The translations under genes were made by a program, and so were the position numbers. Positions 4,019 through 33,065 of a DNA stretch of 33,065 nt are shown here, in pieces. The notes under the pieces are model-generated. The model made no database searches, was not told where the DNA came from, and was given only the letters and a program-made list of their open reading frames with translations. The DNA lies in the NCBI GenBank assembly GCA_021805825.1, contig JAJZEC010000041.1, forward strand, positions 1 through 33,065, read 5' to 3'. This DNA is from Pseudomonadota bacterium (GTDB lineage Bacteria > Pseudomonadota > Gammaproteobacteria > Burkholderiales > Burkholderiaceae_C). The stretch's first letter is position 1, and every line of letters starts with the position of its first letter.

Positions 4019-4390
4019 GATGTGCCTGCAAAGGGTGAACGAAGCCCGCGCGGCCCGTGGAGGGCATCGCCTGGGTACATCGCCTGGGGGAACGGGCCGC
4101 ACGAGGCGGCGGGCTGGCACACCCGCCTCCGTGCCTGCGCTGGAGCGTGGGCGGCGGGGGCTGAGCCTGCTGCCATTCGCCAGGGACGGTCCAGTCGGGC
4201 ATCGATTCCCCGCCCCCGAACTGTCCTCGCCGCCGACGGATGACGCGACGCCTCCCTCTGCCGCCCGCGCTTCTACGTGGCGTGCGACCGTGGCAAGGAA
4301 TGGCGCATGTCTGGTCTCCTGGGTGGCATCGGTGGCGCGTGTCCCGGATGCCGTGGTGGCATGCCGGCGCGCTTCTGCATGAGCCGTACT
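4019..4390. other. Non-coding gap between LuxR-type regulator and carboxylase operon
   Basis: This 372-base gap has no convincing gene; the short reading frames here are Arg/Pro-rich and lack usable ribosome sites. The carboxylase promoter should lie here or in the end of the regulator gene, but I see no clear -35/-10 pair and no sigma-54 GG-N10-GC element on the minus strand. A short inverted repeat, ATGCC-GTGGT-GGCAT (4348-4362), lies 29 bases after the regulator stop. It has no T-tract, so it is at best a weak terminator. Confidence 0.5.
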
Positions 4391-14684: not shown

Positions 14685-14801
14685 TGCGCTTCCTCCGGCA
14701 CTCCCCTGCACATGCAGTACAGGTTCATGGTGCCGCGCCGCAAGCCGCCGCGCCAAGGCTTTCCCGACCAGCGGTCGCGGAACGCCGACGAGCGGCGCGA
14801 T

Positions 14802-16172: not shown

Positions 16173-16178
16173 GTTCGC

Positions 16179-17873: not shown

Positions 17874-17878
17874 GCGAT

Positions 17879-18961: not shown

Positions 18962-20385
18962 CGCCACGACTCCACGTCGCTCGGCGGCGGGCCGGCGCTG
19001 TCGATCAGGGCGCGCAACTCGAGCATGCCCGGCGGGCCCTGCACGAGGAGCAGGTGGGCCGGCGCCGGAGCCGGCTCCGGATGGCCCGAACGCTCGCGGA
19101 TCTGCTCCAGCACTTCCTGCATTTCGCCGCGGTAATGTGCCACCGCGGAGGCGCTGATCAGCGGCAGCAGCACGACCAGCGCCGCGCCCGACGCGGTCTC
19201 GAAGGTCCACATCGAGCTTTCCACCGGCTGCCGCGAGGAGAACTCGGAGAATTCCTCGGCATCGAGCGGGCCCTCGTGCATCCATACCGCGCAGTAGCTG
19301 CGCAGGCGCGTGCGCAGGCCGAGCCCGCTGAGCTGCGCCCACTCCTGCTGCAGCCCGACCGGCGCCTGCGGCCAGGCCTCGCGGATCGGCGCTACACCGG
19401 CCTCCAGATGGGCGAAGTCGAGGTAGGACGCGCACAGAACCTGCAGGCGCTGCAGGTTCTGCTGCTCGAAGGACATGAAGGGCATCGAGTGCACGGCCAG
19501 CAGCGCGTCCGGACGGCCCTGCTCGTCCAGCCGCAGCGGGGCGGCGAACACCCACTGGCTGCGCTCGGCCTCCGCCGCCCGCTCCTGGGCCACGTGCACG
19601 GCCTCGCCGCTTTGCAGGCAGCGCTCGATCAGCGGGTGCCCGGCGTCGAGCAGCGGCAGATCCTGGCCCAGCGAGAAGGCCTGTTCCCAGCGCCACGCCC
19701 GGCCCTGGCGCCGGCGCACGAACACCCCGGCCTCGAGCAGGCGGCAGGCCTGGCTGAGCAGCAGCATGAACGCGTTGGGATCGGGCAGCGGCGGGCCGCC
19801 CGCATGGGCCGCGCCGACGCCCGGCGTGGCGAAGGCGAAGCTGCGCCGCATCTCGAGCATGGCGTCGCGCAGGGTCAGCGGGCGGTCGGTGAGCTCCTGC
19901 TCCAGGGTGTCCAGCGCCTCCTTGACCAGGAACAGCCGGCGCTTGGTGCGCTCCAGGCGCGCGCGCAGGTCGCGCGCGACCTCGCGGTGCAGATCCTGGC
20001 GGTTGACGATCGCGGTGCCGAATTCGCCCAGCACCAGGGTCATGAGCACGCCGCCGAGGAAGTACTCGGAAGGAAAGATAGCCGCCGCCGGAGCCAGCCC
20101 CAGGCGCATGCTCAGTTCCCAGAAGGCGGCGTACAGCGCCGCGCCGAACAGACCGCGTCCGGCTCCATAGCGCACGGCGACCAGCCAGGGCCCGAGCCAG
20201 GCCCAGGGGAAACCGGCATGGATGCCGAGGGCATCCTGCGGCCGCAGCTTCCAGCCCAGCCCGAGGATGAGCAGCGGCAGCACGACGCTTTCGAGGTCGG
20301 CGAACCACGAACCCATGCGCGCCGCATCGCGCCAGGGCCAGCGTCGCTGGCGCCAGCGCGCCGCGGAGGCCAGGGAACGTTTCAT
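18958..20385 (-). CDS. pelD: PelD, c-di-GMP receptor of the Pel synthase (variant I-site)
   Basis: 475 residues (455 in Pseudomonas aeruginosa). Four hydrophobic segments lie between about residues 32 and 135, then a helical linker (REVARDLRARLERTKRR), a GAF domain (about 190-330) and a degenerate GGDEF domain (about 340-460). PelD normally binds c-di-GMP through an RxxD motif in the GGDEF domain and switches on polymer synthesis. Here the matching site reads R385-Q-P-V-E389: the Arg is kept but the Asp is replaced, and no RxxD occurs in the last 150 residues. R419 probably matches the third binding Arg. Activation may therefore be weaker or use another signal. ATG 20385 is 24 bases after the pelC stop. 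Confidence 0.93.
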   Translation of the reverse strand: MKRSLASAARWRQRRWPWRDAARMGSWFADLESVVLPLLILGLGWKLRPQDALGIHAGFPWAWLGPWLVAVRYGAGRGLFGAALYAAFWELSMRLGLAPAAAIFPSEYFLGGVLMTLVLGEFGTAIVNRQDLHREVARDLRARLERTKRRLFLVKEALDTLEQELTDRPLTLRDAMLEMRRSFAFATPGVGAAHAGGPPLPDPNAFMLLLSQACRLLEAGVFVRRRQGRAWRWEQAFSLGQDLPLLDAGHPLIERCLQSGEAVHVAQERAAEAERSQWVFAAPLRLDEQGRPDALLAVHSMPFMSFEQQNLQRLQVLCASYLDFAHLEAGVAPIREAWPQAPVGLQQEWAQLSGLGLRTRLRSYCAVWMHEGPLDAEEFSEFSSRQPVESSMWTFETASGAALVVLLPLISASAVAHYRGEMQEVLEQIRERSGHPEPAPAPAHLLLVQGPPGMLELRALIDSAGPPPSDVESWR

Positions 20386-20409
20386 CGCCGGGCGGTCCGC
20401 GTCAGCCGT

Positions 20410-20976
20410 TCAACGTTGCGCCGGCTTCGGGCCGGCGACCACCTGCAGTCCGGAGAGCAGCGCGGCGATCTGCTGCTGCCCGACCGCCGCCAGGCCCTGG
20501 TAGCCCCAGCCCGAGCGCCCGCCGCTGGCGCTCCAGGCCACGCTGCCGTCGGCCACCCGGCGCAGTTGCAGGGTCACGCCCACCGCGGGCTCGTTGTCCA
20601 CTCCGGTCTTGTAGCGCCATTCGGTGACGTTGCCGCCCAGCGCGTAGGTGGCGCCCTGCCGCCGCGCCCAGCGCAGCTGCTGCGCGGCACTGGGCTCGAC
20701 GGGGGCCTGCAGCAGATCGCCGGCGCCGGGCTGGGGATAGACCACGACCTTGCGCAGGCCGCGCTGGCGCAGCAGCGACACCGCGATGGCCTGCGCGCGC
20801 AGTTGCGCCTGCGGGACGTCGGTGAGGTTGCTGAAGGGCAGCACGGCGAGGGTGTCCTGCGCGCGCAGGCGCAGCGGCTGGGTGGATACCGCGGACACCG
20901 CGCAGCCACCGAGGAGCAGCGCGGCGACCGTTGCCATGCCGACGAGGCTGCGGCGGGACGGATGCGTGGGTGTCAT
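20410..20976 (-). CDS. pelC: PelC, outer membrane lipoprotein of Pel export
   Basis: 188 residues. A lipoprotein signal ends in LLGGC, with C25 the lipidated residue. The mature part has the short alpha/beta TolB-like domain of PelC (TLAVLPFSNLTDVPQAQ; a later Gly/Trp-rich region with GGRSGWGYQG). PelC forms a ring on the periplasmic side of the outer membrane under the PelB pore and funnels the charged polymer. CCGGAG sits 8 bases before ATG 20976. It lies 40 bases after pelB and 24 before pelD. Confidence 0.93.
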   Translation of the reverse strand: MTPTHPSRRSLVGMATVAALLLGGCAVSAVSTQPLRLRAQDTLAVLPFSNLTDVPQAQLRAQAIAVSLLRQRGLRKVVVYPQPGAGDLLQAPVEPSAAQQLRWARRQGATYALGGNVTEWRYKTGVDNEPAVGVTLQLRRVADGSVAWSASGGRSGWGYQGLAAVGQQQIAALLSGLQVVAGPKPAQR

Positions 20977-21016
20977 GCGATTCTCCGGAGGTCTCAGGAT
21001 CGGTTCGGCTGCAAGC

Positions 21017-24000
21017 TTAGCGGCCGAACCAGTGGCGATACTGCAGGATCCATTGTCGGCTCAGGCCCGACACGTCCTGCTGGCGGCTGTAGCCGAACAT
21101 CCACGCATCGGCGCCGAGCAGCGGGCCGCTGATGCCGATGACGGCGTTGCTGACCAGCCCGAGGCTGCGCGAGCGCAGGAGGTCGAGTTCGCCGTAGGGC
21201 ATCCAGCGCGCCACGGGTCGATCCGCCTGGCTGCTGTCGAATCCGATGCCCACGCCCAGCGCGGAATCGCTGGCGGGAACGAAGAAGCCCGCGCCCGGCG
21301 CGCCGCCGCCGGGGACGAGCCCGGCGTAGCGCTGCAGGTTCACCCCGGCGCTCGCCTGGAAGCGATGGTCGTAGCCGAGCAGCTTGAGGCTCAGGTCGGG
21401 TTGGCCGACATGCAGCCACCAGCCGAGCTCGGCGTCCACGCTGCGCCCCGTTCCCAGCGACTGGCCGTCGCGCGCCTGGTAGCTGGCGCCCGCGAGCTGC
21501 AGGCTGGCCCAGGCGCGACCGAAGTCGCGGCGCAGGCGCAGCCGCAGGCGGTCGCGGCTGCCGGCGACGAGCAAGGCCGCCGATTCGTCGGCCACGGCAT
21601 GGTGCTCGACCTGCAGCCCCGCGTGCAGCCCCCAGGGCAGCTCGGTGCGGGCGCCGATCTGCCAGCCGGCCAGGCTGCCCAGCGCGCGGTTGCCGGTGAG
21701 GGCGGCGCGCAGGCTGCTGCGCGCGCCCTGCCAGCGCAGTCCGAGCACGGCGTTCTTCCAGAGGCCCGGCACGCCGCGGATCTGCCCCGGGTCGTTGCTG
21801 CCCAGCGCCTGGCGCGCAACGGCCGCCTGCAGGCTCCACGACGGCGCGACATGCCAGTCCAGCTGCGCCGCCGGGCCGTGGCGGACGACGGCACCGAGCT
21901 GCACATCCTGCAGTTGCAGGCTGGCGCTGTCGGCCCGCGCGAGCTCGCGCTCGGCGGTCTGCCGTTGCAGCGCGCGCAGCGCGGCCGAATCCTGGCCGCG
22001 CGCGGCGGCGCGGTCGAGCAGCGCTTCGGCATCGGCCAGCGAGCGCATGGGCTGCCCGGCCACCCGCCAGGCCTGCGCCCGGTCACTCGGCATCAGGTCG
22101 CGCCCGGCGCCGTGTCGCAGGTCGGTGGCCACCGCCTGGCTGTCGCCCTGCCGCAGGTCGATCTGCAACTGCAGCGACTGCCGCGCCGCCGGGCTCAGCA
22201 CGGCGCGCGCCAGCCAGCGACGCGCCGCCGAGCTGGTGTCCAGCCCGAGCAGCCAGTCGCCGATGGCGGCGTCGGCCTCGGCGCGCTGGCGGGGATCGAG
22301 CTGCCCGCGGAGCAGCCGGTCGCGCAAGGCCTGCAGCACGCGCCGCTGCGCAGTGGCACCCACCCGGCTGCGCGCCAGGCGCAGCCGGGCGACCAGCTCG
22401 TCGACACCGCGCCGGGAGCCGCCGCGGGTCGCCGGCGGCGCGGCCTGCAGCAGGCTCCAGGCGCGGTCGTAGGCGGCGCGCGCGCGGCGCTCCTCGCCGG
22501 CCTGCGCCAGCAGATCGCCGTAGTGGATCAACCACAGCGCATCGGAGCGGTGGCGGCCGAGATCCAGCGCGGCCCAGGCCAGCGCGCGTCGGTAGTCGCC
22601 CAGGGCCTGCGCCGCCGCCGACAGCACCTGCGGGCCGCCAGGCACCGTGCGCAGGCCCGGCGCGTAGGCCGGCAGGCGCGCGCGCAGGCAGGCGCGGTCG
22701 TTGGCGTCCAGGCACATCCACAGCAGGTCGATCTGCGCGCTGCTGTCGCCGGGCCGCAGGCGAAGGGCGTGCATTTCGTCGGCCAGCGCGCGCCGCGGCC
22801 GGCCCAGCGCCTGCCAGACCGACGCGCGCAGCGCGTAGGTGCCGGGACGCCGCCACAGCATCGCGCCCACGGCGCTGGCGTCGACCGCGCGCTGCCAGTC
22901 CTGCAGCCCGGCCGCGCTGGGCTGGTGGCGCAGCAGCCGCAGCCACAGCAGCGCCAGGTCGGGGTCGGGGTGGCGCCTCCAGGCCGCGCGCGCCAGCCGC
23001 AGCGCGGCCTGCGCGCCGGCGCTGTGTTGCCGCAGCAGCACCAGGCGCTGGATCTGGTACGGCTCGATGCCGTCGCGCAGCGCGGGGCTGCGCCACAGCG
23101 AGGTGTAGGCCTGCGCGGCCGCGGCCTGCTGCCCCAGATCCCAGGCCAGGTCGCCGAGCAGCTTCTGGTGCGCCGCGCGCAGGCTGGCGCGGCCCCGCAG
23201 CCCGCGGGTGGCCCACAGTTCCTCGAAGGCCTGCTGGAAACGCCCCTGCTGATCGAGCGCGGTCGCGTAGTCGATGCTGGCGCGCAGATCGAGCGCGCCG
23301 CGCTGCCGGGCCTGCGCATAGACCGCCAGCGAGCGTCGCGTCTGCCCCATGTTGCCCAGCAGCCAGCCCAGTGCCGGCAACACACCCGGGTGGGCGCGCG
23401 CGGCCCGCCGCAGCACGGCCGCGGCCTGCCGCGGGTGGCCGTCGTCTTCCAGGCTCTGCGCGTACTGCAGCCAGTCGGCGGTGGCCATGCGGGTGTGCGC
23501 GGCGCGCTCGCGCCAGTACAGATCCAGCGCCGGACGCGCATGCAGGGCCAGCGCCAGACGATGCAGCTGCGCCAGCGCCTGCGGGTCGTAGCCCGCGCCC
23601 AGCAGGCGCGCCCATTGCCGCAGCGCGGCGTCGGGGTGTCCATTCCATTCGAGAACGCGGGCGCGGCGCCGCGCCCAGACCCGGCTGTCCGGCCGGGCGA
23701 CCAGCGCGGCGGCCGCGACACGCTGCGCAGCGGCCAGGCGACCCGCGCCGAGCAGCACCTGCCACGCCAGTTCGCGCCGCTCCGCGTCGAGCCGGCCGGA
23801 CAGCGCTGCCGGGGGCAGATCCAGGTCGACCGCGCGCTGCAGCCAGCGCGCGGCGGCGTCGGTGCGCCCGGCGCCGAGCGCCAGGCGCGCCACCAGCCAG
23901 TCCAGCGTGGGGTTGTCCGGCTGAGCGGCGACCGCGGCGGCCGTCGCGCGGTAGGCCCGCACCGGTTGTCCTGATGCCAGCAGTGCCTGCGCGCCGCCCT

Positions 24001-24685
24001 GCACCAGGCGCGCGCGCAGCATGGGGTCGGCCTGCCGCCGGGCGCAGGCGAACAGCAGCCGCGCAGCGAGTTCGTAATGGCCGGTGCCCACCAGCAGGCG
24101 CGCGGCCTGCCGCGCCTGCTCCGGCGCCAGCGGCGGCAATGCGCCGATGGCAACGACCAGCCGCGGCGCCGAGGCCACCGCATCGAGCCGCTGCAGCCAT
24201 TGCATCGAACGCCGCCACTGCGCGTAGTCCCGCGGCCGCTGGTGGTCGAGCAGCGCCAGGATGTTGCCGCGCACATGCGCGCGCTCGGCCTGCCGCTGCG
24301 GGCCCGCGCCAGCGGCCATCTGCCACTGCTGTTCCCAGGCACGCAGGCGCAAGGCATCGACGCGCTCGCCCTGCAGCCCGCGCAGCAGCCGCAGCGCCTG
24401 CCGCGGCGCGCCCACATGCAGGTAGCGCTCGGCCAGCAGCAGGCGCAGACCGGGGTCGCCGGTGCGCAAGGCCGGATCGTGCCGCAGGTAGTCGATCACC
24501 AGGCGGTCGTCGCGGCTGCCGGCCAGCAGCGGCGGCAGCGTGCGGCCGGGGTAGACGAGCAGCAGCGTGGTCAGGCACAGCAGCGCCAGGCCGAGCAGCG
24601 CACGACGTGCGAACAGGCGGCTGCGCGCGGGGTCGTCGACCGCGACGTGCAGGGCTGCGCTGTCGGCCGATCGGTGCTTGCGCAT
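21017..24685 (-). CDS. pelB: PelB, TPR scaffold and outer membrane porin for Pel export
   Basis: 1222 residues (1193 in Pseudomonas aeruginosa). There is one N-terminal transmembrane helix (about 28-46, RRALLGLALLCLTTLLLVY), a very long helical region of TPR repeats rich in Ala/Leu/Arg, and a C-terminal beta-barrel of about 300 residues. The barrel ends in the alternating strand QWILQYRHWFGR. PelB binds PelA through the TPRs and exports the polymer through the barrel. It ends with TAA and starts 15 bases after the pelA stop. Confidence 0.95.
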   Translation of the reverse strand: MRKHRSADSAALHVAVDDPARSRLFARRALLGLALLCLTTLLLVYPGRTLPPLLAGSRDDRLVIDYLRHDPALRTGDPGLRLLLAERYLHVGAPRQALRLLRGLQGERVDALRLRAWEQQWQMAAGAGPQRQAERAHVRGNILALLDHQRPRDYAQWRRSMQWLQRLDAVASAPRLVVAIGALPPLAPEQARQAARLLVGTGHYELAARLLFACARRQADPMLRARLVQGGAQALLASGQPVRAYRATAAAVAAQPDNPTLDWLVARLALGAGRTDAAARWLQRAVDLDLPPAALSGRLDAERRELAWQVLLGAGRLAAAQRVAAAALVARPDSRVWARRRARVLEWNGHPDAALRQWARLLGAGYDPQALAQLHRLALALHARPALDLYWRERAAHTRMATADWLQYAQSLEDDGHPRQAAAVLRRAARAHPGVLPALGWLLGNMGQTRRSLAVYAQARQRGALDLRASIDYATALDQQGRFQQAFEELWATRGLRGRASLRAAHQKLLGDLAWDLGQQAAAAQAYTSLWRSPALRDGIEPYQIQRLVLLRQHSAGAQAALRLARAAWRRHPDPDLALLWLRLLRHQPSAAGLQDWQRAVDASAVGAMLWRRPGTYALRASVWQALGRPRRALADEMHALRLRPGDSSAQIDLLWMCLDANDRACLRARLPAYAPGLRTVPGGPQVLSAAAQALGDYRRALAWAALDLGRHRSDALWLIHYGDLLAQAGEERRARAAYDRAWSLLQAAPPATRGGSRRGVDELVARLRLARSRVGATAQRRVLQALRDRLLRGQLDPRQRAEADAAIGDWLLGLDTSSAARRWLARAVLSPAARQSLQLQIDLRQGDSQAVATDLRHGAGRDLMPSDRAQAWRVAGQPMRSLADAEALLDRAAARGQDSAALRALQRQTAERELARADSASLQLQDVQLGAVVRHGPAAQLDWHVAPSWSLQAAVARQALGSNDPGQIRGVPGLWKNAVLGLRWQGARSSLRAALTGNRALGSLAGWQIGARTELPWGLHAGLQVEHHAVADESAALLVAGSRDRLRLRLRRDFGRAWASLQLAGASYQARDGQSLGTGRSVDAELGWWLHVGQPDLSLKLLGYDHRFQASAGVNLQRYAGLVPGGGAPGAGFFVPASDSALGVGIGFDSSQADRPVARWMPYGELDLLRSRSLGLVSNAVIGISGPLLGADAWMFGYSRQQDVSGLSRQWILQYRHWFGR

Positions 24686-24700
24686 GCAGCAGTCGGGAAC

Positions 24701-27580
24701 TCAGGCGCGCTGGAGCACGATGTCGACGCTGCTGGCCGTGCTGCGCAGCCGCAGTTCGGATCGGCGGCGCAGCACGCGCAGTCCCGGCACGGGCTGCAGC
24801 GTCCAGCCGGCCGGCAGGCGCAGCCTGGCGTCGATGGCCACGAAGCCCTGCAGCCGCAGCCGGACGGAGCCGTCGTCGGCCACGCTCCAGTGCAGGACAT
24901 CGGCGTTGGCGTCGACCAGCATGGGCCGCGCAGGCTCCGGCCCGCCCAGGCGCAGCAGGGCCTGCCCGGGCAGCCCATGCAGGTAGCGGCGATCGGCGTG
25001 CTCGTTCCAGCCGACGATCGCCCGGCAGGCATCCAGCCGCGGAGGCTGCGCGCTGGCCGGCTGCACCCACTGCAGCAGGTGCTCGCCGCCGCGCAGCCTC
25101 CAGCCGCCGTCGAGCCGGCGCGCCACCGTCGCGCTGCGCCAGGCGTTGACACTGTGCGCGTACTGCCTGCCGAAAATCGGGTGCACCGGCTGCGCCAGCA
25201 CCCAGCGATAGACCTTGTGCAGGCTGGCGAGCCCCGCCGGCTGGGTGACGATGTAGGGGTGGTAATAGATGTCGATCGGCTTGAGACGGCGCGGCAGGTC
25301 GGTCATGCGGTAGGTTTCGATGGCCCGCTCGAATCCGAAATAGGGCCCGCGCCAGTTGTGCGTGTAGGTCTCCTCGTTCGAGCACGCAGCATAGACCTGG
25401 AAGAAGGCTCCCTTCGGGATTCCCAGGGGCCACACATTGGAAAGCGTCGGCGCCGTGCGGCTGATCGTCGCCCCGCCTCCGTTGAGGTTGGCCATGCCGG
25501 CCTGGTAGGCCATGGCCACCGCCTTGTTCGTCGGATTGCAGTCGCCCGGCCACAGGATGATGTCGCAGGTCTTGCCCGGCGGGCAGAGGTTCTTCTCGAT
25601 GTATTCCTTGGCGCCGGTCACGTTGCTCGCCGTGCTGAAGCGGTAATCGGGCAGCGGCAGGTAGTTGCCATAGGCCTGCTCCCCATCGCCGGTGGGGAAA
25701 CGCGCGTGGTAGCGCGAGGCCAGCACCCAGTCGAAGGGATGCGCCCAGGTGTGGCTGCCGGCCTCGACCCACGGCAGCGCGTACATGCGGCGCGCCCAAT
25801 GCCGCGAGACCGGCGCCAGACTGGGGTATTCGCCATGGTCGCTGACCTCGCCGACGATGATCGAGCCCACCGTCGGGATGCGGTAGCGCTCGAGGATCTC
25901 GCTCACCAGCACCTGGCCGGCGATCGGCGAGCCCGGGCGCAGGCAGGCGTTGGGCCAGCCGTCGCCATCGAAATGGGCGATCAGCACGCGGCGGCCGTAG
26001 CGGGTGGTGACGTCGGGCATCGGGTCGTCGCCGACGCGCAGCGCGGCATGCAGGAAGGCGATGGGGTCGATCGACCAGCGGGTGTCGCTGCCTCCGGGCA
26101 GGTTGAACACGCCGAAGGCGCCCAGCGCATAGCCTCCCCAGGGAGTGAGCGCCGCGCCCTGCATGACCCGACCGTCGCTGCCGACCGCGCTGAGCCACGC
26201 GGTCGAACCGGCCGGCGCCTGCAGATCCACGGTGTTCAGGGGATCGAGCAGCGGCAGCACCTCGCCGGGCGGCGTGCCGGGGCCGCGTCGCATGGCCAGC
26301 GGGCCCGCCAGCTGCCCGCTGCCTACGGTGGCGCCCAGCGCGCCCAGGATCTGGGGATCGGCGGAACCGAACACGGCCACCGGCACGCCCTGCCGCTGGG
26401 CGCGCAGCAGCATCTCGCGCACCGCCTGCGGCACCTCGGAGCGGTCGGGGTAGACGACGATGGCCGCGTAGCGCCCGGCCAGCGGCCGGTCGCCGAAGGC
26501 GGCGCCGATGTACCGGTACTCGGGAACCAGCCCCAGCTGCTCCAGGGGCATGGCGCCGTAGATGTGGGCACTCTGGCTCTGCAGCGCGGGGGCGTTGCCG
26601 GCGGCGCAGGAATGCAGCAGCAGGGCGCGCCGCGGCACGAGTTCCACCGCGCCGACGCCCAGGCCCTGCAGGCCGGCGTCGGCCACCCAGGGGATCAGGC
26701 CCTGCGCGGCGATGGCGCGCGCCACGCGCCGCGCCCGCGCGCGCTGCTCGGGCGCGCAGTAGTCGATGGCGATGCCCGGCAGCCCGAAGCGCGCGCGCAG
26801 TTGCTGGAAGCGTTGCAGCAGCCAGGAGCGGTCGGCGGCCGCCACCGGCACGTAGGCCTGCGTGTCCTGCCTCCAGCCGCGGTACAGCGATTCGGCGGCG
26901 ACGGCGTCGATGGAGGCTGCCAGCGCGGAATCGACGAGATCGAAACCCCGATTGAGAATCAGGCGCAGGCCGGGGAAGGCCGCCACCAGTTCGTGCAGGG
27001 TCGCCGCCAGCGCGGCGGACTGGCGCGCGCGCTGCGCGGCGTCGTGCGCGATCAGCTGGTAGGAGTCCAGGGTGTCAAGGAACAGTCCGCGGAAACCGGC
27101 CTGCCACAGCGGCGCGACGATCTGCTCGCGCAGGAAGCGGCTCCACCCGGCAGCGGTCTGGTCGAGCACCCGCGTGCCCCAGGCGGTGTTGCTGCCGGCA
27201 AACCACTGCGGGGGAATGCGGCGGGCGAGCGGATCGTCGGATGCGACTTCCCCGACCGAGACATAGGCGAAGGCTCTTGCGTAGGGGCCGAGGGCGCGAC
27301 CGATGTCCGCGGTCTCGGCCAGCGCCGGGCCCGGCTGCAGCACCACCGCGTCGAAGGCCGCCAGATCGTCGAAGGGAATGTCGTCGCCGTAGTAGAAGGC
27401 CACCGCCGCGGCCTCGTGGCCTGCAAGCGACGATGCGCCGGAACCGGCGGCCGGGGCGGCCGGGGCGGCCCGACCCGGCCCGTCGGCCGCGGGGGCGGCT
27501 GCGGCCAGCGCCTCGCGGGCGACCGGCAGCGAGCCCAACCCGGCCTGGGCAAGGGTTCCGAGGAACGTTCTTCTTTTCAT
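24701..27580 (-). CDS. pelA: PelA, bifunctional Pel deacetylase and glycoside hydrolase
   Basis: 959 residues (948 in Pseudomonas aeruginosa). The N-terminal glycoside hydrolase domain (about 45-300) has a likely catalytic E230 in AESLYRGW. A Rossmann-like segment follows, then the carbohydrate deacetylase domain with D538/D540 (HFDGDGW) and the metal pair H610-x3-H614 (SHTWAH). It ends in a C-terminal beta-rich domain. In the periplasm PelA deacetylates and trims the polymer on its way to PelB. The signal peptide reads MKRRTFLGTLAQAGLGSLPVA, a twin-arginine type rather than plain Sec. No strong ribosome site precedes ATG 27580. It is the first gene of pelABCDEFG and diverges from acoA across 275 bases. 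Confidence 0.96.
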   Translation of the reverse strand: MKRRTFLGTLAQAGLGSLPVAREALAAAAPAADGPGRAAPAAPAAGSGASSLAGHEAAAVAFYYGDDIPFDDLAAFDAVVLQPGPALAETADIGRALGPYARAFAYVSVGEVASDDPLARRIPPQWFAGSNTAWGTRVLDQTAAGWSRFLREQIVAPLWQAGFRGLFLDTLDSYQLIAHDAAQRARQSAALAATLHELVAAFPGLRLILNRGFDLVDSALAASIDAVAAESLYRGWRQDTQAYVPVAAADRSWLLQRFQQLRARFGLPGIAIDYCAPEQRARARRVARAIAAQGLIPWVADAGLQGLGVGAVELVPRRALLLHSCAAGNAPALQSQSAHIYGAMPLEQLGLVPEYRYIGAAFGDRPLAGRYAAIVVYPDRSEVPQAVREMLLRAQRQGVPVAVFGSADPQILGALGATVGSGQLAGPLAMRRGPGTPPGEVLPLLDPLNTVDLQAPAGSTAWLSAVGSDGRVMQGAALTPWGGYALGAFGVFNLPGGSDTRWSIDPIAFLHAALRVGDDPMPDVTTRYGRRVLIAHFDGDGWPNACLRPGSPIAGQVLVSEILERYRIPTVGSIIVGEVSDHGEYPSLAPVSRHWARRMYALPWVEAGSHTWAHPFDWVLASRYHARFPTGDGEQAYGNYLPLPDYRFSTASNVTGAKEYIEKNLCPPGKTCDIILWPGDCNPTNKAVAMAYQAGMANLNGGGATISRTAPTLSNVWPLGIPKGAFFQVYAACSNEETYTHNWRGPYFGFERAIETYRMTDLPRRLKPIDIYYHPYIVTQPAGLASLHKVYRWVLAQPVHPIFGRQYAHSVNAWRSATVARRLDGGWRLRGGEHLLQWVQPASAQPPRLDACRAIVGWNEHADRRYLHGLPGQALLRLGGPEPARPMLVDANADVLHWSVADDGSVRLRLQGFVAIDARLRLPAGWTLQPVPGLRVLRRRSELRLRSTASSVDIVLQRA

Positions 27581-27647
27581 GGTTTTCGGTCGTGCGCAAC
27601 CCAGCGCAGCGGCGCGCCCGGCCAACCGCTGAACTCTACACCGGGTG

Positions 27648-27680
27648 GCAAGCCTGCGGCGCCCCGCAACCGGGGCTTGC
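27648..27680. repeat. Nested inverted repeat in the pelA-acoA divergent region
   Basis: GCAAGCC (27648-27654) pairs with GGCTTGC within GGGCTTGC (27673-27680). Just inside, TGCGG (27655-27659) pairs with CCGCA (27664-27668) around a CGCC loop. Together they can form a 12-pair hairpin with one small bulge. It lies 68 to 100 bases before the pelA start and about 92 bases upstream of the acoA sigma-54 promoter. It could be a pelA leader hairpin or a protein site. Confidence 0.4.
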
Positions 27681-27690
27681 GTCACCTGCG

Positions 27691-27704
27691 TCGTCGTGCG
27701 ACGA
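27691..27704. promoter_or_regulatory. Candidate AcoR upstream activating site
   Basis: TCGTCG-TG-CGACGA is a perfect 14-base palindrome about 70 bases upstream of the acoA sigma-54 promoter. It is flanked by CACCTG (27683-27688) and CAGGTG (27725-27730), which are inverted to each other. Half of it, GTGCGACGA, recurs at 32077-32085 upstream of the acoX sigma-54 promoter. Assignment to AcoR is inference. Confidence 0.35.
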
Positions 27705-27771
27705 GACAACTGTATCGCCTGCAACAGGTGGCGAGACACCCCGGAGGCGCCGAGGCCGCCGCGACAGCGCC

Positions 27772-27787
27772 TGGCATGCCCCTTGCA
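27772..27787 (+). promoter_or_regulatory. Sigma-54 promoter of the acoAB operon
   Basis: TGGCATG-CCCC-TTGCA matches the -24/-12 consensus TGGCACG-N4-TTGCA at all but one position. GG (27773-27774) and GC (27785-27786) are exactly 10 bases apart. Transcription should start near 27797, about 58 bases before the acoA ATG. A near-identical copy precedes acoX, and an acoR-like activator gene lies nearby. Confidence 0.85.
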
Positions 27788-27855
27788 AAGCCCTCGGCGC
27801 AAGCGAATGCGCGCTGCCGGCCGCGCGCGGCCGAGAACCACAAGGAGACGACGAC

Positions 27856-28863
27856 ATGGGCCCAAGCAACCAGCAGATGCTCTGGATGTACGAGAAGATG
27901 CTTGAAATCCGGGAGTACGAAGAGACCATGGCCAAGGTCTACCTGGAGGGCAAGCTGCCGCCCAACATCCAGAAGGGACTGGCCTTCGACATCGGTTCCG
28001 GCCCGGTGCCGGGGGAGATGCACCTGGCCGCCGGCCAGGAGCCGGTCGCGGTGGGGGTGTGCGCCCACCTGCGCGACGACGACACCGTGGTCGGCACCCA
28101 CCGCCCGCACCATTTCGCGATCGCCAAGGGCGTGCCGCTGCAGGCAATGACCTCCGAGATGTTCGGCAAGGCCGACGGCCTGTGCCGCGGCAAGGGCGGG
28201 CACATGCACCTGTTCGACGTCGCCCACCGCTTCAGCTGCAGCGGCATCATCGGCGCCAGCCTGCCGCCGGCCTGCGGCGCGGCGCTGGCGGCCAGGAAGC
28301 GCGGCACCGACGCCATCGCGGTGGCATTCTTCGGCGAAGGCGCCGCCAACCAGGGCTCGTTCCACGAGTCGCTGAACCTGGCCGCGGTATGGCGCCTTCC
28401 GGTGGTGTTCGTCTGCGAGGACAACAAGTACGCCATTTCGGTGGAGAAGTCCGACTCCACCGCGGTGGCCTGGAACACCGACCGTGCCGCCGCCTACGAC
28501 ATGGCCAGCGCGCTGGTCGACCACAACGACGCGCTGGCCGTGTTCGAGGCCGCCGCCGCCGCGGTGCAGCGCGCGCGCAGCGGCCAGGGGCCGACGCTCA
28601 TCGAGGTCAAGACCGATCGCTACCTGGGGCATTTCCAGGGCGACCCGGAAAGCTACCGCCCGAAGGGCGAGGTCGCCGAGCTGCGTGCACACGACCCGAT
28701 CCCCAGGCTCGCCGCGCAGCTGCGCGCGCTGGGCGCGCTCGACGACCAAGCCGACGCGGCGCTGCGGGCGCGGGTCTCGGCGCGCGTCGAGCAGGCCTAC
28801 GCGCATGCCCGGGCCAGCGCCTACCCGCGGACCGAGGACGCCCTGCTGCATGTCTTCCACTGA
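27856..28863 (+). CDS. acoA: Acetoin dehydrogenase-like E1 alpha subunit (thiamine diphosphate)
   Basis: 335 residues. The thiamine-diphosphate motif starts at G160-E-G162 (FFGEGAANQG) and ends near N190 (CEDNKYA). RGKGGHMHLFD and AAGQEPVAVGV are typical of E1 alpha chains of acetoin and 2-oxo acid dehydrogenases. The family oxidatively cleaves acetoin or decarboxylates 2-oxo acids and passes the two-carbon unit to lipoyl groups. About 17 extra residues (roughly 35-51, rich in Gly/Pro) stand before PGEMHLAAGQE, where most acetoin E1 alpha chains go directly from GKIPG to HLYIGQE. AAGGAG lies 8 bases before ATG 27856. It is the first gene under the sigma-54 promoter. The substrate is inferred from acoX and acoR nearby. 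Confidence 0.88.
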   Translation: MGPSNQQMLWMYEKMLEIREYEETMAKVYLEGKLPPNIQKGLAFDIGSGPVPGEMHLAAGQEPVAVGVCAHLRDDDTVVGTHRPHHFAIAKGVPLQAMTSEMFGKADGLCRGKGGHMHLFDVAHRFSCSGIIGASLPPACGAALAARKRGTDAIAVAFFGEGAANQGSFHESLNLAAVWRLPVVFVCEDNKYAISVEKSDSTAVAWNTDRAAAYDMASALVDHNDALAVFEAAAAAVQRARSGQGPTLIEVKTDRYLGHFQGDPESYRPKGEVAELRAHDPIPRLAAQLRALGALDDQADAALRARVSARVEQAYAHARASAYPRTEDALLHVFH

Positions 28864-28887
28864 GCCGGCGACGGCGGAGATCGAACA

Positions 28888-29925
28888 ATGAACGCAAGCA
28901 ACGAGCGCAGGCTGACCATGGCGCAGGCGATCGCCGAGGCCATCGGACAGCAGATGGAAGGCGACCCCGAGGTCTTCGTGATGGGTGAGGACATCGGGCG
29001 CTACGGAGGCATCTTCGGAGCCACCGGCGGGCTGCTGGACAAGTTCGGCACGGATCGCATCATGGACACGCCGATTTCCGAGACCGCATTCATCGGCACC
29101 GCGATCGGTGCCGCGGCGGCCGGCATGCGTCCGATCGCCGAACTGATGTTCGTCGACTTCTTCGGCGTGTGCATGGACATGATCTACAACCACATGGCGA
29201 AGAACATCTACATGTCGGGCGGCAACGTGAAGCTGCCGATGGTGCTGATGACCGCCATCGGCGGCGGCTACAACGACGCCGCGCAGCACTCGCAGTGCCT
29301 GTACGCGACCTTCGCCCACATGCCGGGGATCAAGGTCGTCGTGCCGAGCAACGCCTACGACGCCAAGGGCCTGATGGCCCAGGCGATCCGCGAGGACAAC
29401 CCGGTGCTCTTCATGTACCACAAGGGCATCATGGGCCTGCCGTGGATGGCCTACTACGAAGGCAGCACGACCGCGGTTCCGGCCGACCCCTACGTGCTGC
29501 CCTTCGGCAAGGCGCGGATCGTTCGCGAGGGTCGCGACCTGAGCATCGTCACCCTCAGCCAGATGGTGCACAAGGCGACCGCGGCGGCCGCGCAGCTGGC
29601 GGCTCAGGGCATCGACGCCGAGATCATCGACCTGCGCACCCTGGTTCCTCTGGATCGCCAGGCCGTGCTCGACTCGGTGCGCAAGACCGGGCGCCTGCTG
29701 GTCGCCGACGAGGACTACCTCAGCTTCGGGCTGAGCGGGGAGATCGCCGCCCTGGTCGCCGAGAACCTGGACACCGTGCGCCTGAAATCTCCGGTGCGCA
29801 GGCTGGCCGTCCCCGACGTGCCGATTCCCTACAGCCGTCCGCTGGAGCAGTTCGTGATCCCCCAGGTGGAGGCCATCGTGGCCCAGGCGCAGCGGCTGAT
29901 GCAGGCGACGGGGGTGCTGGCGTGA
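28888..29925 (+). CDS. acoB: Acetoin dehydrogenase-like E1 beta subunit
   Basis: 345 residues, the normal E1 beta length. MGEDIGRYGG and TPISE65TAFIG (the Glu that activates the thiamine ring) are near the N-terminus. MTAIGGGYNDAAQHSQ follows, and the C-terminal transketolase-like domain has DLRTLVPLDRQAV and ADEDYLSFG. It pairs with AcoA as an alpha2beta2 E1. The gene starts 24 bases after acoA with a GGAGA ribosome site and shares its last base triplet region with the GTG of the lipoyl gene (GTGA). Confidence 0.92.
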   Translation: MNASNERRLTMAQAIAEAIGQQMEGDPEVFVMGEDIGRYGGIFGATGGLLDKFGTDRIMDTPISETAFIGTAIGAAAAGMRPIAELMFVDFFGVCMDMIYNHMAKNIYMSGGNVKLPMVLMTAIGGGYNDAAQHSQCLYATFAHMPGIKVVVPSNAYDAKGLMAQAIREDNPVLFMYHKGIMGLPWMAYYEGSTTAVPADPYVLPFGKARIVREGRDLSIVTLSQMVHKATAAAAQLAAQGIDAEIIDLRTLVPLDRQAVLDSVRKTGRLLVADEDYLSFGLSGEIAALVAENLDTVRLKSPVRRLAVPDVPIPYSRPLEQFVIPQVEAIVAQAQRLMQATGVLA

Positions 29926-30179
29926 GCGTCGTGGCCGTCCGTCTCGACCCCCAGGCGTGGATCGATGTCGAAGCCGGCACCGAGGCCCTGCTCGACCACT
30001 GGAGCGTGGCCCCCGGCGACCGCGTCGAGGCCGGTCAGGTGATCGGCGGCGCGGTGCTGGTGAAGAGCAACCTGGAGCTCAACGCACCCGCCGCCGGACG
30101 GCTGGTGCGCATCGAGGTTGCCGCCGAGCATACCTTCGGCAAGGAGGCGGCGCTGGCGTGGATCGACACCTCGGGCTGA
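29922..30179 (+). CDS. Free-standing lipoyl-domain protein
   Basis: 85 residues forming one biotinyl/lipoyl domain and nothing else. It has the WSVAPGDRVEAGQVIG turn, the VLVK48SNLEL hairpin and the NAPAAGRLVRI strand. K48 aligns with the lipoylated Lys of the ETDKA motif of E2 proteins, although the preceding residues differ (VLVK for ETDK). The normal acoC product has such a domain fused to an acyltransferase; here the transferase is missing. The protein is probably the acyl or electron carrier for AcoAB, loaded by the ligase-like enzyme encoded next. The GTG start overlaps the acoB stop as GTGA, and its last 22 bases overlap the next gene. Biotinylation is possible but lacks the MKM motif. 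Confidence 0.85.
   Translation: MSVVAVRLDPQAWIDVEAGTEALLDHWSVAPGDRVEAGQVIGGAVLVKSNLELNAPAAGRLVRIEVAAEHTFGKEAALAWIDTSG
30141..30147 (+). promoter_or_regulatory. Strong ribosome binding site fixing the lplA-like GTG start
   Basis: AAGGAGG lies inside the lipoyl-domain gene, 10 bases before GTG 30158. It is a near-perfect anti-Shine-Dalgarno match and decides the start of the ligase-like gene, which otherwise has no ATG near its N-terminus. Confidence 0.75.
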
Positions 30180-30880
30180 GCCCCGCGCGGGCCGCCGCGG
30201 CGCGCGCGGAGCAGGCGTGGAATGCACGTCGGCTCCGCGCGTCGCCGCGCCCGGCCTGGCGGCTGTGGCGCTACCCGCAGCCCGCGCTGGTGCTGGGCGC
30301 GGCGCAGCATGCTTTGCACGAGCAGGCCGACCGCGCCGTGCTCGACGTGCTGCGGCGTCGCGCCGGCGGCGGCGCGGTGCTTGTCGGGCCGTGGATGATC
30401 GGGCTGTCGGTGGCGCTTCCGGCATCCCACCCGCTGGCCGGCAACGGCCTGCTGTGCGCCTACCGCTGGCTCGGCGAGGCGCTCGCGCGGGCGCTGAGCT
30501 TCCATGGCGTCCAGTGCGAGGCGCTAGCTCCGCGGCAGCTGCAGGGGCGCCCGCGAGAGCCCGCCGACTGGGCCTGCTTCGGATCCTTGTCGCCCTGGGA
30601 AGTCCTGTGTCAGGGCCGCAAGATCGCCGGCCTGGCGCAGGCGCGCACCGGCGATGCCGTGTTGCTGGTCGCCGGCGTGCTGCTGCGCCCCCCGCATTGG
30701 GAACTGCTGTGCCGCGCGCTGCGTCAGCCGGAGACGCAAGCGCGGCGGCTGCGGCAGGCGAGCATCGACTGGGAGCAGGCGGCCGCCGGCGCCGCGCAAG
30801 CCCCCGCGGAGGTCGAACAGCGCATCCGCGCCCGCCTGCGCGCCGAACTGGCTGCCAGTCTGCGCGCCGCGCGCGCCTGA
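30158..30880 (+). CDS. Compact lipoate-protein ligase A-like protein
   Basis: 240 residues from a GTG. RRRAGGGAV (66-74) and GRK155IAGLAQAR match the lipoate-binding loop and catalytic Lys of LplA/LipM-type cofactor transferases, with CFGSLSPWEV just before. The HD that usually follows GGGAV is replaced by VG. The protein ends after the large domain, so the small C-terminal accessory domain of E. coli LplA is missing. It may need a partner, or may be an octanoyl or lipoyl transferase. It overlaps the lipoyl-domain gene by 22 bases, so the natural substrate is probably K48 of that protein. It is the last gene of the operon and converges on acoX. Confidence 0.8.
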   Translation: MDRHLGLSPARAAAARAEQAWNARRLRASPRPAWRLWRYPQPALVLGAAQHALHEQADRAVLDVLRRRAGGGAVLVGPWMIGLSVALPASHPLAGNGLLCAYRWLGEALARALSFHGVQCEALAPRQLQGRPREPADWACFGSLSPWEVLCQGRKIAGLAQARTGDAVLLVAGVLLRPPHWELLCRALRQPETQARRLRQASIDWEQAAAGAAQAPAEVEQRIRARLRAELAASLRAARA

Positions 30881-30885
30881 GCGCC

Positions 30886-30914
30886 GGCGCGGCGCAGCAA
30901 GGCGCTGCCGCGCC
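30886..30914. terminator. Bidirectional hairpin between convergent genes
   Basis: GGCGCGGC (30886-30893) pairs with GCCGCGCC (30907-30914). An inner AGC/GCT pair and an AAGGC loop complete a stem with a 2-base bulge. The hairpin nearly fills the 34-base gap between the ligase-like gene and acoX, which are read towards each other. There is no T-tract on either side, so it may act mainly as an RNA 3'-end stabiliser or pause site. Confidence 0.5.
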
Positions 30915-31922
30915 TCAGCTCAGCAGCAGGCCATGCGCGCCGGCGTAGTCGAGGATGTCTTCCACCGCCAGGGTGCGCGGGCCGTCGAGCTCCAGCCAGA
31001 TGGCCGGTGGCTGCGACGGGTCGAGCAGCCACTCGCGCTCGCCGTCGAAGGCCAGCGTGCCGGCCAGCGCCGGCAGCACCTGCTCCTGCCCGGGCAGCAG
31101 GCGCCGCACCGCGCCCACCCCCACCGCTTGCAGCACGCCCGGGAGCAGCGGCGCACGCAGCGTGCGCGCCCCGCCGAGTTCGACCTGCAGGCCCCAGGGC
31201 TGCGTACGCTGCACCGGCTGCACCCAGGCGGCGATCGACGACAGGCCGATGGACTGCGGCTGCGCGAAGGACACGTAGACGCTGTGCACGTCGTCGGCGC
31301 TGTAGACGGCGCGCGCGGCCACCGCGCGCTGGCGCGTGACGACCACGTCGACGAGCGCGATGGCCTCGCCCTGCACCCCATGCACCCGCAGCACCTTGTT
31401 GGGCCGCAGCGCGATCGCATCGGGAATGCGCCCGCTCAGATACAGGCCGAGGGCGATGCCCGACAGCGTGGGCTCGCGCAGGTCGGGAAAGGCATTGTTG
31501 GTTCCGGTGGACAGCGCGAGCAGCGGCAGGTCGCCGCAGCCCTGCGCCACCGCGCGGTGGGTGCCGTCACCGCCGAGCACGGCCATCGCCGCCACGCCCA
31601 TCGCGCGCAATGCGCGCGCTGCCTGCAGCGAATCGTCGACGCGGTCGCGGCAGTCGATCGGCAGCATGCGCACCTCGGGCAGCACCGCGCCGCCCGCGGC
31701 CTGTGCGGTGCGGGCCTTCTCGGCGATGCGCGCGCCGAGCCCGGCGGGGTCAGGCATCAGCCAGGCCTGGCGCAGACCCAGCGCGGCGGCCGCGCCGAGC
31801 AGGCGCAGCACGGTGTTGACCTTTTCCTGATGCGACACCGCATTCGCCCACGACACCAGGCGGCGCACGTCGCGCCCGGCCGAGGGATTGACGATGACAC
31901 CGATGGCAGGGAGCTGGAGCAT
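30915..31922 (-). CDS. acoX: AcoX, NAD-kinase-fold protein of acetoin catabolism
   Basis: 335 residues. GGDGT (117-121) and STGTNNAFP (138-146) are the nucleotide-binding motifs of the ATP-NAD kinase/diacylglycerol kinase fold. An N-terminal GVIVNPSAGRD strand precedes them. AcoX is found with acetoin dehydrogenase genes in several bacteria; its biochemical role is unknown. Here it has its own sigma-54 promoter and is read against the acoAB operon, whereas it is often the first gene of that operon. The upstream open frame to 32186 is unlike the family, so ATG 31922 is chosen. Confidence 0.88.
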   Translation of the reverse strand: MLQLPAIGVIVNPSAGRDVRRLVSWANAVSHQEKVNTVLRLLGAAAALGLRQAWLMPDPAGLGARIAEKARTAQAAGGAVLPEVRMLPIDCRDRVDDSLQAARALRAMGVAAMAVLGGDGTHRAVAQGCGDLPLLALSTGTNNAFPDLREPTLSGIALGLYLSGRIPDAIALRPNKVLRVHGVQGEAIALVDVVVTRQRAVAARAVYSADDVHSVYVSFAQPQSIGLSSIAAWVQPVQRTQPWGLQVELGGARTLRAPLLPGVLQAVGVGAVRRLLPGQEQVLPALAGTLAFDGEREWLLDPSQPPAIWLELDGPRTLAVEDILDYAGAHGLLLS

Positions 31923-32018
31923 GGTGCGGGCCGATGGCGGATGAAGGGTGGCGGGTGGGCGTTCGCACCGGGCCGGGAGCGCGCGATGCCGCGGCGGATC
32001 AAGCAATCCCTTCGATAC

Positions 32019-32034
32019 AGCAAGGAGCATGCCA
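32019..32034 (-). promoter_or_regulatory. Sigma-54 promoter of acoX
   Basis: On the minus strand the sequence reads TGGCATG-CTCC-TTGCT. GG and GC are 10 bases apart, and it differs from the acoA promoter at only two positions. The start would fall near 32008, giving an 86-base leader before ATG 31922. GTGCGACGA at 32077-32085, shared with the acoA region, may bind the activator. Confidence 0.8.
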
Positions 32035-32136
32035 CGAGACGCAGCCGAAGGGGGCATAATCCGCTGGATCACTACAGTGCGACGACCACGCCGCGGACTG
32101 CCGGCGCGCGGGCGATCGCAGCGGGAGACAACGCCG

Positions 32137-33065
32137 ATGGAAAGCTTGCAAGCCTTGCCCGCGGCGGGCGCCGGCGGCGCCGGCACCCAGGCGCTGATCG
32201 CGCGCTCCTGGCAGCGTTCGATCGACCGCCACGGACTCGATCCGGCACGCCTGGATGCGCCGCGCGTGCTCAGCGCGGGCGCCTTGCGCGAGCACCTGGA
32301 GCCGATGCAACCGCTGCTGGAACTCGCGCGCCTGCCCCTGCAGTGGCTGCACGAGCAGGTGCGTGATGCCGGCTACGTCGTGCTGCTGACCGACGCCGAA
32401 GGCATCACGCTGCGCATGCTGCGCGATGCGCGGCTCGATCGCGCGCTGCGCCACGCCGGGCTGCACGAAGGCAGCGCCTGGCAGGAGCCCCGTGAGGGAA
32501 CCTGCGCGGTGGCGCTGAGCGCCCTCGAGCGGGTCGCGCTGACGGTGCACCATGGCGAGCACTTTCGCGCCGCCAACCGCTCGCTGACCTGCAGCGCCGC
32601 TCCGGTGCTGGCGCCCGACGGCCGGGTGCTGGCGGTGGTCGACGCCTCGGCGCTGGACTCCCCCGACGACAAGCGCAGCCAGCACCTGGTGCTGCAGATG
32701 GTGCGCCAGGCCGCACGCACGATCGAGGACGCCTGGTTCCTGCAGTCCTTCGCCGACCAGTGGGTGCTCCACATCGGCTCGCAGACGCCTTGGTCGGAGG
32801 TCGCCACCGACGGCCTGCTCGCCGTCGACGGGGCAGGCCGCGTGCTGGCGGCCAATGCGCGCCTGCGCGACGCCGGATTCCCGGGGCGCGAGGCCCTCGT
32901 CGGTCGGCCGCTGCGCGAACTGCTGGGCATCGACCTGCAGGCCTTGTGCGCGGCCGCCGCCCACGACCCGCAGGCGCTGCTGCGGCTTGCGGCACTGCCC
33001 GCCGGCCATGCCGCCCGCCTGCGCTGGCCGCGTCGCCGCACGCCGGCGCCCGCGCCACGCGCGCC
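32137..33065 (+). CDS. acoR: AcoR-like sigma-54-dependent activator (N-terminal part, cut by window)
   Basis: Partial gene: 309 codons from ATG 32137 to the window end. The visible part starts with LIARSWQRSIDRHGLDP, the usual opening of AcoR-type activators. A GAF-like sensor domain follows (about 65-190; YVVLLTDAEG, EGTCAV, HHGEHFRAANRSLTCSAAPV, DASALDSP). A second PAS-like segment starts near 230 (GLLAVDGAGRVLAANARL). The AAA+ and HTH domains would lie beyond the edge, so the sigma-54 link is inferred from homology and from the two nearby -24/-12 promoters. GGGAG lies about 10 bases before the ATG. It diverges from acoX across 214 bases and is probably sigma-70 transcribed. EGTCAVAL replaces the common EGTNAIGTAL. 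Confidence 0.85.
   Translation, partial: MESLQALPAAGAGGAGTQALIARSWQRSIDRHGLDPARLDAPRVLSAGALREHLEPMQPLLELARLPLQWLHEQVRDAGYVVLLTDAEGITLRMLRDARLDRALRHAGLHEGSAWQEPREGTCAVALSALERVALTVHHGEHFRAANRSLTCSAAPVLAPDGRVLAVVDASALDSPDDKRSQHLVLQMVRQAARTIEDAWFLQSFADQWVLHIGSQTPWSEVATDGLLAVDGAGRVLAANARLRDAGFPGREALVGRPLRELLGIDLQALCAAAAHDPQALLRLAALPAGHAARLRWPRRRTPAPAPRA

Follow-up and report, generated by a model that had tools for sequence, protein, structure and literature searches.

The DNA analysed here, which we call the window, is one contig in full (C102 of genome G000; 33,065 nt) from a bacterial genome of 3.35 Mb in 110 contigs, with completeness 100 and contamination 0.45. We are interested in a module of four plus-strand genes which encodes the E1 (the thiamine-diphosphate component) of an acetoin-dehydrogenase-like system and a free lipoyl protein, and which has no gene for E2 (the acyltransferase) or E3 (lipoamide dehydrogenase) beside it. 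The 2-oxoacid and acetoin dehydrogenases are textbook examples of tethered complexes, in which the lipoyl domain swings on E2.

The four-gene module

The first gene (27856-28863) encodes an acoA-type E1 alpha subunit of 335 aa (Pfam E1_dh, 2.5e-73) and the second (28888-29925) an acoB-type E1 beta subunit of 345 aa (Transket_pyr, 3.7e-42; Transketolase_C, 2.3e-35); together they supply the alpha2beta2-type E1 that an acetoin dehydrogenase complex requires. They are followed by LIP (29922-30179), a lone lipoyl-domain protein of 85 aa with acceptor lysine K48 (Biotin_lipoyl, 1.4e-5), and by LIG (30158-30880), an LplA-family protein of 240 aa (LplA-B_cat, 1.8e-12). The acoB and LIP genes overlap by GTGA, and the LIP and LIG genes by 22 bases. 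That is, the four genes form one tight operon.

A preliminary description of the window, made from its letters alone, had proposed these four open frames with these overlaps, and both are confirmed. It had also remarked that neither acoC nor any E3 gene lies beside them. Our whole-genome profile searches agree: the window contig holds no match to the E2 family PF00198, to the AcoC-type E2 profile NF011457 (E≤1e-20; score cut-off 307 bits) or to the lipoamide dehydrogenase profile TIGR01350 (E≤1e-30).

An operon of this kind might be the remnant of an ordinary aco operon in decay. We rule this out, because the genes are intact, because the ratios of nonsynonymous to synonymous substitution rates (dN/dS) between the window and its nearest relative, L051, are low (0.11 for acoA, 0.18 for acoB, 0.38 for LIP and 0.46 for LIG), and because the set is found again in relatives. 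The identical gene order in many other loci, along with these dN/dS values, marks the module as more than a chance arrangement. AcoA is 93% identical to its counterpart in L051 and 42% identical to the AcoA of a second aco operon in the same genome; AcoB is 72-80% identical to those of five loci with the same gene order, and 46% identical to that of the second, canonical operon.

Relatives of the module

A search of the window's order (399 genomes) yields 25 with a LIP match at E≤0.001, of which only seven, including the window's, reach 2.8e-12 or better. The set acoA-acoB-LIP-LIG is found in five of these seven; in one of the five (G388), LIP and LIG are separated by a stand-alone E2 catalytic gene of 237 aa. 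The seventh genome, G049, encodes a LIP-like protein that lacks the lysine. In that genome, which belongs to the window genome's family, the LIP-like gene (L044, 9403-9648) reads H-Q at the lysine position (LVHQTVD), without an attachment residue, and stands near and opposite to an operon of acoAB with a fused E2.

A wider census of 87 loci comprises the best 80 of 527 relatives from one AcoB genome scan, driven by two patterns, together with six loci from the window's order and the window itself; it represents the nearest relatives, not frequency. No E2 gene lies near acoB in 42 rows, which we call E2-less, a separate E2 gene is present in 31 and a fused E2 in 11, and three loci (L091, L098, L109) are set aside as unclear. 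Because rows L041 and L095 duplicate a single locus, the 42 E2-less rows stand for 41 distinct loci. Comparison of the neighbourhoods of the lone lipoyl protein, a check put forward in the preliminary description, thus finds the LIP set to recur, at 41 distinct loci without E2.

LIG accompanies the E2-less set in 28 of the 42 rows and is missing from 14. In the separate-E2 loci the order LIP, E2, LIG holds in 30/31, the remaining locus ending before LIG; the motif H-x3-D/N-G is kept in 29 of the 30 separate E2 frames called, the 30th being cut, with the frameshifted L071 outside the 30. Since 31 loci encode LIP and the E2 domain apart, an untethered LIP with a separate E2 is normal, indeed the rule, in this family. 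Beside the E2-less sets, whose neighbourhoods are varied, we saw no further shared gene and no alternative acceptor gene; this speaks neither for an acceptor within the operon nor against one elsewhere.

On the E1-beta tree, a quick build with many weak branches (28/83 inner branches are starred as well supported), we count 6 changes of the E2-less label, of which the starred branches force 4 or more; shuffled labels give 28.5 changes and 0/500 shuffles are as low. The window's own group of 17 rows, with a Shimodaira-Hasegawa-like approximate likelihood ratio (SH-aLRT) of 95, contains 9 E2-less and 8 separate-E2 rows, and a second, weakly supported group (84) contains 27 E2-less rows. Because E2-less rows fall in several groups of the tree, loss or gain of the E2 gene has happened repeatedly, with E1 and LIP retained, which is what a replaceable E2 would lead one to expect.

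Several other features of these loci were noted. An open reading frame (ORF) that by eye resembles a GMC oxidoreductase, with a small subunit bearing a twin-arginine (Tat) signal, often flanks the separate-E2 cluster (L039 9317-13114, L072, L083, L085, L094, L103, L106, L126-L129), sometimes with glyoxalase-like and pyrroloquinoline quinone (PQQ)-dehydrogenase-like ORFs; these neighbours might form an oxidation route into the E1 substrate. On Comamonadaceae-type contigs (L086-L089, L092, L096), acoA-acoB-LIP occurs without LIG and is mostly followed by genes that by eye resemble a MacA/MacB-type ABC efflux set. A zinc alcohol-dehydrogenase-like gene, which may encode a butanediol dehydrogenase, lies between acoA and acoB in Pseudomonas (L126 5851-9002, also L129). 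Finally, acoA appears split over two frames in L042 (12859-13855), as do acoA and the E2 gene in L071 (5151-8180), both from draft genomes.

Properties of LIP and LIG

The Pfam match, the alignment and a structural model all give LIP a barrel-sandwich lipoyl-domain fold with the lysine at the hairpin turn. In the model (predicted local distance difference test, pLDDT, 93.1; predicted template modelling score, pTM, 0.75), K48 lies between strands 40-46 and 49-54, as in lipoyl domains. It is invariant in a 39-row alignment of relatives, as are W13, L23, W27, A55 and P56, and the carrier lysine is kept in 42/42 E2-less rows (39 by script; L115, L119 and L123 by eye). Biotin_lipoyl matches 39/39 LIPs, whereas GCV_H (E≤0.01) matches 6/39, weakly; we therefore reject the identification of LIP as GcvH. 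When the LIP profile is compared with solved sequences, the best match is the lipoyl part of an E2 of pyruvate dehydrogenase (PDH; 1.1e-22), and biotin carriers are among the nearest as well.

LIG has the LplA-family fold, the catalytic lysine and the R-x-GGG region of the LplA/LipM/LipL family, in a compact protein. Its model (pLDDT 90.8, pTM 0.89) finds LplA-type ligases as top Foldseek matches, the first being 2art (E 9.9e-14), and its best sequence-profile match is 2p5i (BH3822; 2.2e-12). R67, G70, G71 and K155 do not vary across 20 rows, at least 90% of which keep C140. In a larger set Cys140 is present in 55/60 rows and the other 5 are gapped, some rows being badly framed: for the relatives, a script chose the LIP and LIG start sites, and some LIG frames in this 60-row set are wrong (e.g. 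L073, L102). The LipM and LipL acyltransferases use a nucleophilic cysteine, of which we take Cys140 to be reminiscent, yet the top structural matches are LplA ligases. In the alignment of LIG with 2p5i, Cys140 is offset and the two cysteines occupy different columns. Because they fail to superpose, both assignments stand, and LIG would be either a lipoate ligase or a cysteine-dependent octanoyl/lipoyl transferase. What had been described as the module's own ligase thus has an LplA-family fold, but with a conserved cysteine that would also suit a transferase.

Possible partners in the same genome

PF00198 finds two E2s in the window's genome. One lies on C60 next to an AceE-type E1, the other on C13 with a SucA-type E1 and a lipoamide dehydrogenase as neighbours. 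From these neighbours and their sequence patterns we take them to be of PDH type and 2-oxoglutarate dehydrogenase (OGDH) type, respectively. Both are long frames beside their own E1s, and we reject a hidden lone-domain E2 elsewhere in the genome. Two lipoamide dehydrogenases exceed the TIGR01350 cut-off, both on C13. For lipoylation, C78 carries a LipB-type gene (102.7 bits to PF21948) and, adjoining it, a gene that is presumably of LipA type.

A second, canonical operon, acoX-acoA-acoB-acoC-ligase-like, lies on the minus strand of C50. Its AcoC is intact, scoring 435.7 bits to NF011457, with a lipoyl domain and a GHSMG motif. PF00676 matches the acoA genes of C50 and C102, the SucA-type E1 and, weakly, two others; alpha2beta2-type E1 alphas are encoded only on C50 and C102. 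At the upstream end of the C50 operon there is a sigma-54 element with one mismatch, which is not significant (53/200 shuffles of the contig are as good).

The preliminary description had named an intact acoC elsewhere under the same sigma-54 control as a finding that would refute its proposal of an unusual E1 system. The intact acoC exists, on C50; the shared control is possible at most, because so many shuffles match as well. The accompanying check for E2 and lipoamide dehydrogenase genes turned up the PDH-type and OGDH-type E2s, AcoC and the two lipoamide dehydrogenases.

Control elements and flanking genes

A sigma-54 type -24/-12 element, TGGCATGCCCCTTGCA, lies on the plus strand at 27772-27787, 84 nt before the acoA start, and matches exactly the pattern TGGCAYGNNNNTTGCW, which we take to be the sigma-54 consensus. 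A second exact match, TGGCATGCTCCTTGCT, lies on the minus strand at 32019-32034, upstream of a minus-strand gene with a Pfam NAD_kinase/DAGK_cat match (30915-31922, start by eye; longest frame 30915-32186). This gene, presumably acoX, shares 42% identity with its counterpart in the second aco operon and 72% with the one in L051, in keeping with the convergent acoX of the preliminary description. Beyond it, on the plus strand, a putative activator gene cut by the contig end (32137-33065, start by eye; open frame 31948-33063) clusters with acoR-like ORFs of relatives, and we take it to be acoR.

Allowing at most one mismatch, the window contains 2 matches to the consensus against a shuffle mean of 0.80, and 20/100 shuffles hold 2 or more. 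Because the count is equalled so often, it is the position and exactness of the elements that carry the argument: both are exact, one before acoA and one before acoX. L051 has such an element at -71. In the census, elements within 450 nt upstream of acoA (at most one mismatch) occur in 7/39 E2-less, 15/31 separate-E2, 1/11 fused and 0/3 unclear rows, where letter shuffling leads us to expect 0.08, 0.08, 0 and 0, respectively. All 7 element-bearing E2-less rows belong to the window's own group. AcoX, AcoR and a sigma-54 promoter, features of acetoin dehydrogenase operons, are thus found together here, given the presumed names of acoX and of the truncated acoR-like ORF. The acoX-like gene, the acoR-like gene and the sigma-54 elements appear to tie the module to acetoin-type control.

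The module had also been described as closed by a hairpin after LIG. This did not hold up: shuffled sequences fold as well as the hairpin does (z 0.24; 115/200 as good) and no terminator-like site was found within 27600-32300, so that we reject it as a terminator.

A proposed split acetoin-dehydrogenase-type system

From the gene content, its conservation, the E2 and E3 genes of the genome and the separate E2 domain gene of relatives, all of which can be read in the sequences, we infer a substrate, a lipoylation and a use of partners in trans. With a probability of about 0.55, the module is a split acetoin-dehydrogenase-type system whose free LIP uses an E2 and an E3 encoded elsewhere. AcoA2B2 would cleave acetoin, or else a hydroxyketone or diketone related to it, and would reductively acylate free LIP, K48 having been modified by LIG with LipA (and LipB). 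LIP would act as a diffusible substrate rather than as a domain of E2, delivering the acyl group to an acyltransferase (E2) from another locus and handing its dithiol to a shared E3, a housekeeping lipoamide dehydrogenase. In the window's genome the likeliest E2 would be either AcoC from the second operon or the enzyme of PDH type; in general, AcoC would probably stand in where it is present and a PDH-type E2 where it is absent. In assays, E2 and E3 enzymes act on lipoamide or lipoyl domains in free form. The separate-E2 relatives show that LIP is built for untethered work, and losing a dedicated E2 would therefore be a less drastic change than for a tethered complex.

E2 and AcoC were counted in two sets of genomes, 37 from E2-less loci and 15 from separate-E2 loci; these are mostly drafts of unstated completeness. 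Two of the 37 belong to unclear loci, and unambiguous E2-less counts are therefore taken over 35. The E2-less rows L112, L114, L115, L119, L123 and L125 lie in genomes outside these searches, and the genome of L095 is G329. Of the 37 genomes counted as E2-less, 36 encode housekeeping E2s; the exception, G427, belongs to an unclear locus.

Three observations weigh against a borrowed E2. AcoC exceeds the cut-off in 7/37 E2-less against 0/15 separate-E2 genomes, which is not a significant excess (p 0.09), and a further genome, G399, has an AcoC-like fragment at a contig end; we therefore reject AcoC as the universal partner. Next, in 17/35 E2-less genomes, mostly drafts and G399 among them, PF00198 finds no more than two E2s and no AcoC exceeds the cut-off. 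AcoC therefore cannot be the partner throughout, and the role would fall to a PDH or OGDH E2. Finally, a histidine three residues after the lysine occurs in 23/31 LIPs with a separate E2 and in 0/39 script-parsed E2-less LIPs (the remaining three were checked by eye), which hints that E2-less LIPs may no longer fit that kind of E2; since the independent-pairs test has only 3 pairs, the difference is not significant. The remote shared E2 and E3 that the preliminary description had allowed for thus have candidates in the genome, and AcoC as the shared E2 falls short in most relatives. Another candidate, a third E2 found in several Comamonadaceae-type genomes with E2-less loci, was rejected because it lies beside its own E1 alpha and beta in the three that we opened (G413, G329, G410).

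The main competitor, which we consider unlikely, is a carrier independent of E2: acyl-LIP would pass its acyl group to phosphate, water or a biosynthetic acceptor, or LIP would pass on only electrons, in the manner of GcvH. In its favour, the set with LIP and without E2 stays intact over 41 distinct loci in varied neighbourhoods, and E2-less LIPs lack the histidine near the lysine. The isolate Hydrogenophaga intermedia S1 speaks for it too. It has one PDH-type and one OGDH-type operon, each with its own E1, E2 and lipoamide dehydrogenase, and genome searches with PF00198 and NF011457 found no AcoC over the cut-off and no further E2. Against this stand the absence of a conserved acceptor gene beside the E2-less sets, the near-universal housekeeping E2s and the ordinary-looking E2 domain of the nearest separate-E2 relatives. 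The wider form of this idea is rather improbable in our view: an E1 with a free lipoyl carrier and no E2 of its own kind, delivering acyl groups or electrons to an acceptor other than a 2-oxoacid dehydrogenase E2, as a GcvH-like arrangement in dozens of proteobacterial genomes. A GcvH-like working of LIP would be an analogy only.

It is less probable still that, in the window's genome, the module is a second E1 which mainly feeds the lipoyl domain of AcoC itself, LIP being auxiliary or redundant. AcoC-bearing canonical aco operons do accompany the module in 4/9 genomes of the window's group (G000, G400, G401, G403), and in the three of these whose AcoC loci were opened, AcoC sits in an acoAB-AcoC operon like that of C50. 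But the other 5/9 genomes have no AcoC over the cut-off (in G399, the fragment), and LIP is under purifying selection with its lysine kept. We largely dismiss the proposal that LIP carries biotin or nothing and that the module's function is not acyl transfer: the Pfam family covers biotin and lipoyl domains alike, biotin carriers are among the nearest solved sequences and the lysine-less LIP-like protein of L044 lies beside another aco-like operon, but the lysine motif is LVK-S/T/A, unlike the M-K-M of biotin carriers, the gene partner is of the LplA family and the best solved match is a PDH E2 lipoyl part.

If the split system does borrow its E2, one housekeeping E2 core would serve foreign E1s via a diffusible carrier; if it does not, a new route for acyl-lipoyl groups would exist. 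On either reading, the lipoyl protein paired with this whole E1 family is untethered, and the E2 domain is free or missing.

Comparison with known systems

An E3 gene is frequent in acetoin dehydrogenase operons but not universal. With the acetoin dehydrogenase complex (acoXABC with AcoR/sigma-54; acoABCSL in Pelobacter) the module shares the E1 alpha and beta genes, the AcoX-like and acoR-like genes and the sigma-54 type elements. It differs in having neither acoC nor acoL, in encoding the lipoyl domain as a separate 85-aa protein and in completing the operon with an LplA-family gene. The Pelobacter cluster includes acoX (PMC3543383). The split-E2 relatives (L039, Thauera L103, Cupriavidus L072, Pseudomonas L126) have the same E1, LIP and gene order, and a closely related LIG except in the Pseudomonas-like group; unlike the module, they have an E2 catalytic gene of 230-250 aa between LIP and LIG.

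For a lone lipoyl protein that has an enzyme of its own, the closest precedent is sHdr-LbpA with its dedicated LplA, likewise a single-domain lipoyl protein with a neighbouring LplA-family enzyme (PMC6067878). LbpA is GcvH-like, takes part in sulfur oxidation and has a link to Hdr-like proteins, whereas the partner of LIP is a thiamine-diphosphate E1; no Hdr gene was noticed near the module, although no search was aimed at hdr-like genes. GcvH is likewise a free lipoyl carrier serving separate enzymes; LIP is shorter and only weakly related to it by profile. A study on sirtuins of microbial pathogens reportedly concerns a GcvH-like protein with an LplA. In the open literature, judged by titles and the starts of abstracts and with subscription papers and preprints outside its coverage, we found no E2-less E1-lipoyl operon described, and the separate-E2 cluster has no description that we found in the open literature.

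Other genes of the window

The remaining long ORFs were assigned by eye. Divergent from the module, the minus strand at 14800-27500 holds long ORFs resembling Pel-type exopolysaccharide genes and large TPR/outer-membrane genes. Further away on the same strand lie a large LuxR/MalT-type regulator ORF (4391-7276) and a hydantoinase/acetone-carboxylase-like ORF (2009-4120), which together may represent a ketone pathway on the module's contig.

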